Shown: piece after piece, positions 2,840 through 20,609 of the stretch
How the letters are laid out: each line of letters begins with the position of its first letter
Numbering within the stretch: position 1 is the first letter of the stretch
Source of the DNA: a virus
Direction: 5' to 3' (one strand)
Length of the DNA: 39,237 nt
Virus record (IMG/VR): IMGVR_UViG_3300013131_002471
Span: 1 to 39,237 of that record
Notes under the pieces: model-generated
What the model was told of the DNA's origin: nothing
The model's database searches: none
Seen by the model: the letters and a program-made list of their open reading frames with translations, nothing else
Program-made: the position numbers and the translations under genes

Positions 2840-4453
2840 ATGGCAAAGAAAGTGTTTATGAATGCTGACAGTCGCAATGGTTTAAAGATTGGAATCGATA
2901 CATTAGCGAATGCAGTAAAAAGTACATTGGGGCCGAAAGGTCGTAATGTTGTGATTGAGAAACCAGGACTAAGTCCGGTAATCACAAAGGATGGTGTATC
3001 TGTAGCAAAGGAAATTGTATTGGAAGATCCAATTGCAAATGCGGGAGCACAGATGTTAAAGGAAGTTGCTAGCAAGACTGCTAATCTAGCAGGTGATGGT
3101 ACAACTACAGCAACTGTATTAGCTCAGGCTATTGTAACTGCAGGATTAAAAAATGTTACAGCAGGAGCCAATCCAATTGATTTGAAACGTGGTATTGATA
3201 CTGCAGTTGCTACAATTGTAGATTCATTAGATGAAATTGCAGTTAAGATTGAAGGCGACTCTGATCAAATTAAGCAAATTGCAACTATATCAGCAAACAA
3301 TGATGAGGCTATTGGATCGTTGATTGCAGAGGCTATGGCGGCGGTAGGTACCGAAGGTGTTATTACTGTTGAAGAAGCAAAAGGAATGCAAACAGAATTG
3401 ACTACAGTTGAAGGTATGCAAATCGATCGTGGTTACATATCTCCATATTTTGTAACTGATACTACTAAAATGGAAACGGTTTATGAAAAACCTTACATCT
3501 TAGTCTACGATAAAAAGATTTCAAATATGAAATCGTTCTTACCTATCCTAGAAAAAGTAGTACAGACGGGACAGCCTTTGATTATTGTAGCTGAAGATGT
3601 TGAAGGTGAAGTATTGAGTACATTGGTAATGAATAGAGTTCGTGGTGGATTAAAAGTAGTAGCAGTTAAAGCTCCAGGGTTTGGAGATAAAAGAAAAGCA
3701 ATGTTAGAAGATATTGCAATCTTAACCGGCGGTAATTTAGTATCAGAAGAGTTAGGGCATAAATTAGAAAATGTAAGTTTAGATGATCTAGGTATTGCTT
3801 CTAAAGTAGTTGTTACTAAAGACGATACTACCTTTGTTAACGGCGCAGGTGCGACAGAAGATATTAACAATCGTATAGAAAGTATCAAAGGTCAAATCGA
3901 ATCTTCAACTTCTGACTATGAACGTGAAAAATTACAAGAACGTCTAGCAAAATTAGCAGGAGGTGTTGCAATTCTATCAATTGGAGCCGCATCTGAAATT
4001 GAAATGAAAGAAAAGAAGGATCGTGTGGATGATGCATTAAGTGCTACTAGAGCTGCCATTGCAGAAGGTATTGTACCCGGAGGCGGAATTGCTTTGATTA
4101 GAGCAGCAGAACGTTCAGCATTTATAGGTAAGAATGAAGATGAAACTATTGGTATTAATATTGTATTACGTGCTATTGAAGAGCCACTTCGTCAAATATG
4201 TGCAAATGCAGGAGCCGATGGATCGGTTGTAATTAGAGATATCAAACAAAATGAAAACATTGCATACGGATACAATGCTCATACAGAACAGTATGAAGAT
4301 TTATATGTATCAGGAATCATCGATCCTAAAAAAGTAGAACGTGTTGCATTACAGAATGCTGCTTCGGTTGCTTCAATGATCCTAATGACGGAATGTGCAT
4401 TGATTGAAATTCCAGAACAAAAGTCAGATAAAAATATTAATTACGACTTATAA
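2840..4453 (+). CDS. groEL: Chaperonin GroEL (phage-encoded)
   Basis: A 537-residue group I chaperonin, nearly the full bacterial length (about 545). The nucleotide-binding motif GDGTT is at 85-89, the N-terminal TLGPKGRNV segment is intact, and [14 protein letters not shown] is in the second equatorial half. It lacks the C-terminal GGM repeats of most bacterial GroELs and ends in a polar tail. It would form the folding chamber for phage proteins. No GroES is visible in the window, so it would use the host GroES or a phage co-chaperonin elsewhere. It lies 10 bp after the gp44-like gene with a modest AAGGAACA ribosome site. Overall similarity to Bacteroidetes GroEL suggests capture from such a host, which is an inference. 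Confidence 0.97.
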
Positions 4454-16774: not shown

Positions 16775-18688
16775 ATGAACAAAACAGTACATAAACCATG
16801 GGGTAGAGAAGAGTGGTTAGCATTGAACGATTTTTATTGTTATAAACGAATTTATATCAACGCTGGATATAAAACTAGTTACCAATACCATCAGTTCAAA
16901 CACGAAACTAATTATATTATCTCAGGTACAGCTGAAGTATGGTTAGAAAACGATGAAGGAGTTGTTGAGAAAAAAATTATGACAGCAGGTGATTTCTTCG
17001 ATGTTACGCCGCCTAAGAAACATCGTGTTATAGCTATAACAGATATTATACTACAAGAAGTATCGACTCCGCACGTAGATGATGTTATACGTATAAACGA
17101 CGAATTTCATCGTACTGATGGTAAAATTGATGCGGAACATAACACCCCGGCAGTGCTAATATTAGCGGCGGGCATAGGCAGTCGTTTAAAAAACTTAACT
17201 AAAAATATTAATAAAGCATTATTACCGATTAATAATAAAGCGATAATATCTTACATTATTGAAAAATTTCCGAAAGAGTATGAATTTGTTATAGCATTAG
17301 GATATAAAGGGGAGTCTTTAAGGGAATATTGTGAATTGGCATATCCATTACATAAGTTTACATTTGTTAACATTGATAATATAGATAACGAAGGATCTGG
17401 GCCAGGATATTCTGCATTACAATGTAAGTCTTATTTACAACGTCCATTTTATTTTATCGTAGCTGATTGTATTATAGATTCAAAAATACCACACTTGGAT
17501 GGCAATTGGTTAGGAGTATACCCAACTAGTTATCCAGAAAAATATTCTACTGCTGAGATTGATTCTAATGATAATATTTTAAACTTTGTTAATAAAGACG
17601 TATGTGGCCATGATAATGCGTTTGTAGGATTGGCTAGTATATGGGACTATGACATCTTTTGGAAAGAGTTAGCCTCTAACATAGAGAATGGTGAAATAGT
17701 TTCTGCATTTAAAAATATAAACAAATATCCTGGATTTAAAGCTAAACATCTAAAATGGCTAGATACTGGCAATTTAGACGATTTGAATAAAACTAAAGAA
17801 TATTTAGGCGACGATCCATTATCTTTGTATAAAACTACTGACGAAATCACGTATAAAGAAAATAAATTTATTAAATTCAATCCAGATGCTGAGTTTATTG
17901 AAAATAAAACAAAACGTGCACATATATTAAAAAATATTATTCCTATAAACTTTTCAAGTAGTAAACATTTTATTAGTTATGACTGGGAAAATGGTAATAC
18001 ATTATATTATTATGATAAGTTAGAGTATTATCTTAAATTCTTAGATTTTTATACATCGATCATTAGTCAATCTAATTTCATACAGGGCCAAGTCAACGAC
18101 TTTAAATTGTTCTATGAAAATAAAACAATGCAACGTAAAAATAAATTTACAGATATATACGGTGACCGGTATGCAGAACAACAGTATACCATTAATGGTA
18201 TTGCATATGAATCTTTAAATACTATATTAAAAAACATATCGTTTGATTACTCTTCGATTGAGATATATTCATTATTCCATGGTGATTTGCAATTTGATAA
18301 CATTTTATTTGATCATACGACTAATAAATTTACATATATCGATTGGCGCGAATCATTTGCAGGTAACACATCAGGTGGAGATTTATATTACGATTTAGCA
18401 AAACTATACGGAGGTTGTATTATACCATATGATAAAGTTAAAGACGTTTCGTACATAATGTTAAACGAAGGACTATCGACAGTTGATTATTCATATTCAA
18501 TATCAGACCAATTGACTCGTTTCAAGCATGAATATGAACAATGGATATTGAAGCAAGGATTTGACTTAAATAAAGTTAAGTTTATTACGGGACTTATTTT
18601 CTTGAATATGTCGCCATTGCATGACGATAAATTTTCAAAAATGCTCTGGTTTAAATCTATAGAGTTACTTAGCAATGCTAATAAATAA
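16775..18688 (+). CDS. Three-domain fusion: cupin, sugar nucleotidyltransferase, APH-like kinase
   Basis: A 637-residue protein with three parts. Residues 5-115 form a cupin like the C-terminal domain of type II phosphomannose isomerases (HKPWGREEW, YQYHQFKHE). Residues 126-345 form a nucleotidyltransferase with LAAGIGSRL (130-138), Lys147 and VADC (229-232). Residues 360-637 form an aminoglycoside/choline-kinase-like domain with HGDLQFDN (502-509) and YIDWRE (521-526). A kinase fused to a nucleotidyltransferase could turn a free sugar or alcohol into its NMP- or NDP-activated form, as LicA and LicC do together for choline. The cupin may isomerise or bind the substrate. Neighbouring genes suggest the substrate is unusual. 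Boundaries are estimates. Confidence 0.82.
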   Translation: MNKTVHKPWGREEWLALNDFYCYKRIYINAGYKTSYQYHQFKHETNYIISGTAEVWLENDEGVVEKKIMTAGDFFDVTPPKKHRVIAITDIILQEVSTPHVDDVIRINDEFHRTDGKIDAEHNTPAVLILAAGIGSRLKNLTKNINKALLPINNKAIISYIIEKFPKEYEFVIALGYKGESLREYCELAYPLHKFTFVNIDNIDNEGSGPGYSALQCKSYLQRPFYFIVADCIIDSKIPHLDGNWLGVYPTSYPEKYSTAEIDSNDNILNFVNKDVCGHDNAFVGLASIWDYDIFWKELASNIENGEIVSAFKNINKYPGFKAKHLKWLDTGNLDDLNKTKEYLGDDPLSLYKTTDEITYKENKFIKFNPDAEFIENKTKRAHILKNIIPINFSSSKHFISYDWENGNTLYYYDKLEYYLKFLDFYTSIISQSNFIQGQVNDFKLFYENKTMQRKNKFTDIYGDRYAEQQYTINGIAYESLNTILKNISFDYSSIEIYSLFHGDLQFDNILFDHTTNKFTYIDWRESFAGNTSGGDLYYDLAKLYGGCIIPYDKVKDVSYIMLNEGLSTVDYSYSISDQLTRFKHEYEQWILKQGFDLNKVKFITGLIFLNMSPLHDDKFSKMLWFKSIELLSNANK

Positions 18689-19286
18689 AGATACAAAAAT
18701 ATTTTGTTCGTTTTCTTCGAATCCTGGGAATAACGGCTGTACATTCTTTAATTCAAAGTTTGAGGAGAATAATGTTAACGCGATATACAAATCATTTTAC
18801 TCGGATAACATAGTTAAGTCTATTGAAGCTGTTAAAACATTAAATATATCTGGATTTGCTGTTAGCATGCCGTTTAAAACTGCTATCCTCGATCATGTAG
18901 ATGAGATGGATGATGCAAGTAAATGTATTCAAGCAGCTAATACTATTATTAACATTGACGGGTATTTGAAAGCATATAACACGGACTGGTTAGGAGTTTC
19001 TAAATATATTTTGGAGAGTATTGATTTTTTAACTATATTAGGTAATGGCGGATTTAGTAAGGCAGTGCAGTATACATGTAATCAAAAAAATATACCATAT
19101 CAAATTATTACGCGTAAGGATTGGCATAAGGTTTATGATCTATCTGGATATGTTTTTAATGCTACTCCTGTTGATGTAGTTACTAAAGGAAATTTAATAG
19201 ATGCAAGGCCGCATACCGAACAAGGAAAGATAATTGCGCAGTTACAGGCAGAAGAACAATATAAATTATATCTTAATCATATATGA
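18675..19286 (+). CDS. AroE-like shikimate dehydrogenase family protein, short
   Basis: A 203-residue relative of shikimate/quinate dehydrogenase, shorter than the usual 270 or so. It keeps the substrate-side pattern (SMPFK with the catalytic Lys, AANTI, YNTDW with the catalytic Asp), a dinucleotide loop LGNGGFSKA, and FNATPVDV matching the family's NATPxG. The normal S-x-S--HN start is altered to SFSSNPGNNGCTFFN. A phage has little reason to make shikimate, so a carbasugar, polyol or keto-sugar may be the true substrate; this is an inference from the flanking aldolase-like and activating genes. It overlaps both neighbours. Confidence 0.75.
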   Translation: MLINKDTKIFCSFSSNPGNNGCTFFNSKFEENNVNAIYKSFYSDNIVKSIEAVKTLNISGFAVSMPFKTAILDHVDEMDDASKCIQAANTIINIDGYLKAYNTDWLGVSKYILESIDFLTILGNGGFSKAVQYTCNQKNIPYQIITRKDWHKVYDLSGYVFNATPVDVVTKGNLIDARPHTEQGKIIAQLQAEEQYKLYLNHI

Positions 19287-20260
19287 CAAACATACAATAT
19301 TTTATAGGACCTATGACAAAAAACGTAGTCGATGTAGCTATCGAATATGCTAATAATACGGGTCATAAATTAGCATTAATACCATCACGTAGACAAATTG
19401 AGTTCAATGGCGGATATGTTAACAATTGGACGACAAGTGAATTTGCTCATTATGTACGAAGTAAAACTAATAACATTTTACTAGTACGAGATCATGCCGG
19501 CCCGGGTCAGGGTCAAATAGATGACGATGGTTATGTATCTTTAGCAGAGGATTGTAATCATTTAGATGTTATTCATATCGATCCATGGAAAAAATATCCA
19601 ACATTTGAATTAGGATTATATGAAACAATTCGTATGATACAATATTGTTATGAGATAAATCCTAATATAGAATATGAAATAGGCACTGAACAGTCTATTA
19701 GAAAATTTGAATCATACGAATTAGATGAATTAGTATGCCAACTTAAGTCTAAACTACCAGCTGTAATATTTAATCAAATAAAATATTTAGTAATTCAATC
19801 TGGCACTTCATTAAATGGTAATCTGCAGACTGGACAATTTGATCCTATTCGATTACAAAACATGTTATCTGTATGTAAAAAGCATAATCTTATATCTAAA
19901 GAGCATAACGGAGATTATATACCAGTTGATATAATTAAACAAAAATTTGATTTAGGTTTACATAGTATTAACATTGCTCCTGAGTTTGGACTTATCGAAA
20001 CTCAAACGTATTTAGATCGTATTAATACTGATAATATGTTAGAAGAATTATGGAATATATGTTATCAGTCAGGCAAATGGAAAAAATGGGTAACTGCTGA
20101 ATTTGACCCGTTAAAAAATAAAACAGAACTTATACAAATTTGCGGTCATTATGTAGTATCAGTCGATAAATTCTTAGGAATCAAAAATAATTTTCCTTAT
20201 ATTGATTCTGAAATACAAAAACGTATATACTTAAAACTTAAAGAGTTAAATGGAAATTAG
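19283..20260 (+). CDS. KbaZ/GatZ-like aldolase family protein
   Basis: A 325-residue TIM-barrel-like protein resembling the class II tagatose-bisphosphate aldolase accessory family (GatZ/KbaZ). Markers are IPSRRQIEFNGGYVNNW, LLVRDHAGPGQGQ, VIHIDPWKKYP, YEIGTEQSIR, LQTGQFDP and SKEHNGDYIP with INIAPEFG. In enteric bacteria GatZ and KbaZ are needed for full aldolase activity and were long called non-catalytic. Here no GatY/KbaY partner is visible, so this protein probably acts alone in building or cleaving a sugar skeleton. It is coupled by ATGA to the AroE-like gene before and overlaps the phosphatase after by 11 bp. Confidence 0.7.
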   Translation: MTNIQYFIGPMTKNVVDVAIEYANNTGHKLALIPSRRQIEFNGGYVNNWTTSEFAHYVRSKTNNILLVRDHAGPGQGQIDDDGYVSLAEDCNHLDVIHIDPWKKYPTFELGLYETIRMIQYCYEINPNIEYEIGTEQSIRKFESYELDELVCQLKSKLPAVIFNQIKYLVIQSGTSLNGNLQTGQFDPIRLQNMLSVCKKHNLISKEHNGDYIPVDIIKQKFDLGLHSINIAPEFGLIETQTYLDRINTDNMLEELWNICYQSGKWKKWVTAEFDPLKNKTELIQICGHYVVSVDKFLGIKNNFPYIDSEIQKRIYLKLKELNGN

Positions 20261-20609
20261 ACCAAAGACAATAATTTGTGATATCGATGGTACATTAGTA
20301 CAACATGTTGATCCATCTAAAGCATCAAATCCTGCACATAAAATGCAATTACTCGACGGTACTATAAGTAAATTATTAGAATGGGAACGTAAAGGGTATC
20401 GTATATTATTATTAACTGGTCGTAAAGAATCATTACGTGATGTTACAATTCAGCAATTAAAAGATGTCGGTATATTTTATGACCAGCTCATCATGGGAGT
20501 TGGCGGAGGCGTGCGATATCTGATCAATGATTGTAAAGATAACGGAGAAAAAAGTTCATTTGCTATTAATGTAGATCGTAATAAAGGTATAAAGTATATT
20601 GACATATGA
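20250..20609 (+). CDS. HAD-superfamily phosphatase
   Basis: A 119-residue single-domain HAD protein. ICDIDGTLV near residue 9 carries the nucleophile and acid Asp pair, LLLTGRKES holds the motif II region, and YLINDCKDNG replaces the usual motif IV. A C0-type, cap-less form fits the short length. It would remove phosphate from a sugar phosphate intermediate; in this cluster a step after the aldolase-like protein is likely. It overlaps the next gene by ATGA. Confidence 0.8.
   Translation: MEIRPKTIICDIDGTLVQHVDPSKASNPAHKMQLLDGTISKLLEWERKGYRILLLTGRKESLRDVTIQQLKDVGIFYDQLIMGVGGGVRYLINDCKDNGEKSSFAINVDRNKGIKYIDI

Follow-up and report, generated by a model that had tools for sequence, protein, structure and literature searches.

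The D-glycero-D-manno-heptose pathway consists of GmhA, HddA, GmhB and HddC, and in two other known systems, AmgK-MurU (an anomeric kinase and a nucleotidyltransferase) and LicA-LicC, such enzymes are paired. GatZ/KbaZ proteins are fructose-6-phosphate/tagatose-6-phosphate C4 epimerases (PMC11907403), and for E. coli GatZ a catalytic Asp87 with the ligands His88, Glu171 and His257 has been proposed, an assignment that is modelled and not crystallographic (PMC11907403). In the shikimate dehydrogenase (AroE) family, the 5-ketofructose reductase 7cok provides a precedent for sugar reduction (PMC7954740), and in E. coli ST648 the sdhL gene neighbours the L-sorbose operon (PMC12817954). Here we describe four consecutive genes at positions 16775-20609 of a 39,237-base virus record from a marine phage (IMG/VR IMGVR_UViG_3300013131_002471; "the window" is this entire record, which is possibly a fragment). 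We consider it reasonably probable that the four genes are a dedicated cassette for one nucleotide-activated sugar or polyol, serving the phage glycan region at 6775-29238; literature searches turned up no description of a cassette with this make-up. The four genes are as follows.

16775-18688, + strand: fusion of a cupin, a nucleotidyltransferase (NT) and an APH-fold kinase, 637 amino acids, of NT-APH clade A (Pfam, NCBIfam and PHROGs profiles, conserved residues, tree)
18675-19286, + strand: compact AroE-like dehydrogenase of the SdhL/HI0607 type, 203 amino acids (Shikimate_dh_N profile, 1npy match, structure model)
19283-20260, + strand: GatZ-like protein of the class II aldolase fold, proposed ketose-phosphate C4 epimerase, 325 amino acids (structure model, residue mapping)
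20250-20609, + strand: small HAD phosphatase, 119 amino acids (HAD_PNKP profile, 4xrp match, alignment of 26 proteins)

All four open reading frames (ORFs) lie on the plus strand, with successive overlaps of 14, 4 and 11 nucleotides. The first-pass annotation had described four overlapping genes with these domain types, and the ORFs, domain profiles and structure model confirmed this description, with the catalytic residues kept. It had also named a lack of co-occurrence elsewhere as grounds for refutation, and a gene-neighbourhood check did not refute it, finding the set in more than 50 viral contigs as well as in cellular genomes. A chance cluster is excluded because the same genes are adjacent in these contigs and genomes. 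The scan of viral contigs gave 57 loci with a GatZ-like protein. By automatic count, 51 of the 52 non-redundant viral loci with an NT-APH protein had a GatZ-like ORF, and the locus missed by this count (L042), whose centre had come from a weaker NT hit, also has such a gene. The HAD phosphatase was present in all 52 loci except the truncated contig L024, and in L046, L053, L054 and L056 the phosphatase gene that follows GatZ comes from a second family of small HADs. Equivalent cassettes, with phosphatase, reductase, NT-APH, GatZ-like and cupin genes, were found in bacteria of the candidate phyla radiation (CPR), in Woese-/Pacearchaeota and in Pelagibacteraceae. In these cellular cassettes the phosphatase slot is occupied by a KdsC-like HAD, a member of the inositol-monophosphatase family (IMPase-type) or a GmhB-like HAD, and the reductase slot by a full-length AroE or an unrelated short-chain dehydrogenase/reductase (SDR). 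Since unrelated enzymes fill the same slot, the slots can be read as functional steps, namely dephosphorylation and redox. Among the matches in the phage collection, those named "Listeria phage" and "Salmonella" seem to be bacterial contigs from unverified or mis-filed records and are left out of the phage evidence; the phage-type fused cassettes of L072 (Flavobacteriaceae) and L074 (Alphaproteobacteria), which may be phage contigs binned into metagenome-assembled genomes (MAGs), are not a basis of the cellular case.

The NT-APH tree splits into two clades (support 100/98), with the window protein in clade A. Among the 32 members of clade A, 26 are accompanied by AroE and five by an SDR (including L097), and the last, L110, has an unstable placement in the tree. 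In clade B, 37 of the 38 members have no reductase, and one (L021) has an SDR within 4 kb. A Fisher test of the association between clade A and a reductase gave p ~1e-17, a value that ignores shared ancestry and is not to be read as a probability. Seven cassettes fetched later from CPR and DPANN genomes all fit this pattern, one (L171) belonging to clade A with an SDR and six to clade B with neither AroE nor SDR. In phages, the cupin is fused in every full-length clade A protein and is a separate gene in clade B. On the GatZ tree the A and B labels are interleaved and change 16-17 times; well-supported branches require at least 12 of these changes. The clearest example is the pair of related phages L004 (clade A) and L006 (clade B), which are 83-84% identical in nucleotide sequence over 18.4 kb of flanking DNA on both sides and differ by a clean block replacement reaching from the upstream gene to the start of GatZ; the same replacement pattern, at lower identity, was seen in L018/L020, L020/L022 and L028/L037. 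Because the GatZ tree mixes the two labels and L004 and L006 differ by this swap, GatZ and HAD probably supply a common intermediate to two interchangeable activation modules, and in module A this intermediate is probably reduced first. Module A brings in a reductase along with a distinct NT-APH protein, and the simplest reading is therefore that the compound it activates is the reduced form (a polyol) of the one activated by module B; a phage that swaps modules probably changes its product. The earlier proposal that the set acts as one unit holds in that the set recurs, but the AroE gene is not obligatory and belongs to one of the two modules.

Further loci were also observed. In Prochlorococcus phage P-TIM68 (L143, 835-5677), a cupin and a small HAD have a Zn-alcohol dehydrogenase and a transketolase/E1-like protein as neighbours, and L142 (4682-5339) holds another pair of cupin and small HAD. 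These pairs may represent a variant cassette that uses different carbon chemistry; the annotation of their HADs as "phosphoheptose isomerase" and of a cupin as "cysteine dioxygenase" is apparently wrong. Enterococcus phage 9183 (L144, 2610-4585) carries a pair of HAD and NT-APH genes (NT-APH profile, E 1.6e-47) with no GatZ nearby.

The 325-amino acid protein had no GatZ family match in Pfam, NCBIfam or PHROGs, and no PF08013/TIGR02810 match was found in the window at E<=1; a cellular cassette member (L082) scored 25.5 bits against the GatZ/KbaZ profile, with a cut-off of 26.7. The AlphaFold model (predicted local distance difference test, pLDDT, 94.5) matched E. coli GatZ (2fiq) with Z 30.7 over 318 aligned residues at 2.6 A, followed by a Sinorhizobium homologue (Z 29.2), tagatose 4-epimerases (24-26), UxaE (24-25) and aldolases (~20-22). 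The earlier label "KbaZ/GatZ-like" is therefore right as a fold, at 19% sequence identity to E. coli GatZ. GatZ residues D87, H88, E171 and H257 correspond to D70, H71, E136 and H208 of the window protein; all four are kept and are invariant in an alignment of 50 viral-type proteins, and the E136 position is Asp in some cellular cassettes. In place of the three-histidine metal site of class II fructose-bisphosphate aldolase, the middle ligand is E136, as in GatZ. The family-specific residues C20, E44 and K279 (PMC11907403) are replaced by G9, I33 and N230, and the changes at the substrate-contact positions E44 and K279 were found in all cassette members compared. As the substrate residues are changed and the metal and catalytic residues kept, the chemistry is probably that of GatZ and the substrate probably a different one. 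Classification of the third gene as a true GatZ was rejected because it lacks the curated profile match and the substrate residues.

Related genes also occur outside the cassette. Stand-alone GatZ-like genes of marine Flavobacteriaceae/Bacteroidetes (L061-L071, L073 and L075) are 53-61% identical to the phage protein; most adjoin succinate dehydrogenase, and nitrilase-like and beta-lactamase-like genes are also among the neighbours, which give no functional hint. In L093 (3761-10219) and similar enterobacterial loci, a phosphotransferase system (PTS) operon encodes a multiphosphoryl transfer protein, IIB, a transaldolase and a 417-amino acid GatZ-like protein bearing S-R-x-Q and KEHNGDY motifs; this operon is likely a catabolic pathway for a PTS sugar.

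The AroE-like protein matched the Shikimate_dh_N profile (5e-14), and its best sequence match in the PDB was HI0607 (1npy, 7e-41), which places it by sequence in the HI0607/SdhL branch of the shikimate dehydrogenase family. Its model (pLDDT 95.7) aligned with AroE 2hk9 over 201 residues (Z 23.8), and the catalytic K68 and D104 are invariant in 28 relatives. The Rossmann domain is shortened, having ~70 residues fewer than most cellular cassette homologues, and the protein falls below the NCBIfam equivalog cut-off (PRK12550, 131/306 bits). In the fusion protein, a cupin of the type II phosphomannose isomerase (PMI) kind (residues ~1-115) is followed by an NTP_transferase-type NT (~126-345) and an APH-fold kinase (~350-637). 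The cupin matched a MannoseP_isomer-type profile (residues 2-70, E 2.4e-7), the NT matched the NTP_transferase profile from residue 128 (8.7e-9), and the APH profile matched residues 500-545 (E 0.0027), with the catalytic signature H502-D504-N509-D523 present. The active-site signatures of both the NT and the kinase are found, and G133, G135, R137, K147, D231 and D330 of the NT and H502, D504, N509 and D523 of the kinase are invariant in 48 relatives. Among solved structures, LicC, a CTP:phosphocholine cytidylyltransferase, was the best match of the NT (3e-11), with sugar-1-phosphate transferases close behind (5e-10), matches that do not settle the choice of NTP. The fourth protein matched a HAD/PNKP-phosphatase-like profile (6e-7) and the PNKP phosphatase domain 4xrp (2e-11), with the nucleophile D11, the acid D13 and N93/D94 identified in the alignment of 26.

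From the co-occurrence, the two NT-APH clades, the reductase association, the module swapping and the active-site conservation, we infer a pathway in its reactions, substrates, order and nucleotide. The GatZ-like enzyme would epimerise a ketose phosphate (by analogy fructose-6-phosphate to tagatose-6-phosphate) by metal-dependent retro-aldol/aldol chemistry, and the HAD phosphatase would then take off the phosphate. The AroE/SdhL-like enzyme would use NAD(P)H to reduce the free keto-sugar, probably to a polyol, which the APH-fold kinase would phosphorylate and the fused NT would activate; the fused cupin may isomerise or epimerise an intermediate. GatZ and HAD form a common front half, and the back half is exchanged between phages: module A (the cupin-NT-APH fusion with AroE) would give a reduced product and module B (a separate cupin and a different NT-APH protein, with no reductase) an unreduced one. 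The recurring parts are compatible with removing phosphate from a sugar or polyol and with its reduction, phosphorylation and nucleotide activation, as the first-pass annotation had supposed. Several points weigh against this pathway: the APH domain scores below the curated Pfam cut-off; the changes at E44 and K279 mean that the protein may not carry out the reaction of GatZ; AroE could oxidise instead of reduce; the link of reductase and clade A in phages may be a single inherited linkage, with only the CPR and archaeal cases more independent; and in some cellular loci of clade B, KdsC and NT-APH occur with no GatZ nearby, so that B can sometimes do without GatZ.

In the pathway as first proposed, the GatZ-like protein was a true aldolase joining two small carbon units into a ketose-phosphate skeleton, which HAD would dephosphorylate and NT-APH activate. 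This is consistent with the class II aldolase fold, the kept catalytic Asp and metal site, a profile match to the sulfofructose-phosphate aldolase 8q57 (1.5e-6), and the transketolase/E1-like protein of P-TIM68, another C-C bond enzyme, near a cupin and a small HAD. However, the nearest folds are all C4 epimerases (Z 24-31), with aldolases behind (Z 20-22), and the metal site is H/E/H, as in GatZ, and not the H/H/H of aldolases (PMC11907403). Because the closest folds are C4 epimerases and the metal and catalytic residues are shared with them, the protein is likelier an epimerase than an aldolase; epimerising a carbon skeleton is a more likely role than building one, and we regard the aldolase pathway as unlikely.

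It is still less probable that the cassette activates a choline- or aminoalcohol-type alcohol by the logic of LicC-LicA, with GatZ, AroE and HAD supplying an unusual small alcohol and not a sugar. The LicC match of the NT would fit such a role, and the APH fold includes choline kinases, but the sugar-1-phosphate transferases score nearly as well as LicC, and the GatZ fold, the KdsC/GmhB-type phosphatases, the PMI-type cupin and the nearby glycosyltransferases all indicate sugars. Finally, the AroE-like protein retains the shikimate dehydrogenase fold and its catalytic Lys and Asp, and could be an auxiliary metabolic gene of aromatic synthesis whose sugar-gene neighbourhood is incidental. This is very improbable: AroE accompanies clade A NT-APH across phages, CPR and archaea, where SDRs replace it, and its best sequence match is HI0607/SdhL. 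Chorismate synthase was not found in five of the seven genomes with a cassette AroE, which is weak evidence as these are MAGs or single-cell assemblies and possibly incomplete, and the other two have chorismate synthase together with a second AroE. A shikimate-pathway role was rejected on the clade A association, the SDR replacement and the missing chorismate synthase. Returning to the epimerase-based pathway, we see about an even chance that it is an undescribed nucleotide-sugar/polyol pathway common to marine T4-like phages, CPR, Woese-/Pacearchaeota and Pelagibacteraceae, in which the SdhL-type AroE is a sugar reductase and module exchange under a constant epimerase/phosphatase pair toggles a sugar on the surface or the virion between a reduced and an unreduced state.

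The cassette sits mid-way in an extended series of genes for glycosyltransferases, methyltransferase-like proteins and epimerases at 6775-29238 (~22 kb of the 39-kb record), which includes the following.

10023 and 28018: GT2 glycosyltransferases
11676: GT25-like gene
12334: GT10 fucosyltransferase-like gene
24483 and 25460: NAD-dependent epimerases
within 6775-29238: small methyltransferase-like genes

The replication genes of the window are T4-like (clamp loader subunits), and the nearest relatives of its clamp loader are from an uncultured large phage, Pelagibacter phage HTVC008M and cyanophages. A phage-encoded GroEL is found at 2840-4453, with Bacteroides phage GroELs (~60%) as nearest relatives. 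A host among the Bacteroidota would be a guess.

These results give a testable function to three orphan groups, namely GatZ-like proteins beyond Pfam, SdhL/HI0607-type AroE proteins and cupin-NT-APH fusions, and suggest an activated sugar not yet described. Phages exchange sugar-activation modules as blocks, comparable to serotype gene swaps in bacteria, and the cassette gives a starting point for studying surface glycans in CPR and DPANN organisms, which are difficult to approach directly.

Compared with known systems, the window protein shares with GatZ/KbaZ (PF08013) the fold, the catalytic Asp and the H/E/H metal site, but it is below Pfam detection, differs at E44 (I33), K279 (N230) and C20 (G9), and carries SRRQ and KEHNGDY motifs that the 417-amino acid enterobacterial relative linked to PTS and transaldolase partly shares; the cassette genes lie in biosynthetic and not in catabolic operons. 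With SdhL/HI0607 and 5-ketofructose reductase, the AroE-like protein shares its best sequence match (HI0607) and fold (Z 22.4-22.5), but the phage version is compact, with its shortened Rossmann domain, and stands in an activation cassette. AmgK-MurU and LicA-LicC likewise partner an APH-fold kinase with an NT, and the window NT has weak profile matches to MurU (NCBIfam) and LicC (PDB); in contrast, the cassette kinase and NT form a fusion that often includes a cupin, and they are linked to GatZ, HAD and AroE. The D-glycero-D-manno-heptose pathway is alike in logic, with an isomerase, a kinase, a HAD phosphatase and an NT, and a GmhB-like HAD adjoins the Pelagibacter cassette; however, the cassette has a GatZ-like protein and APH instead of GmhA and HddA, its NT and APH domains are fused, and its AroE or SDR is optional.

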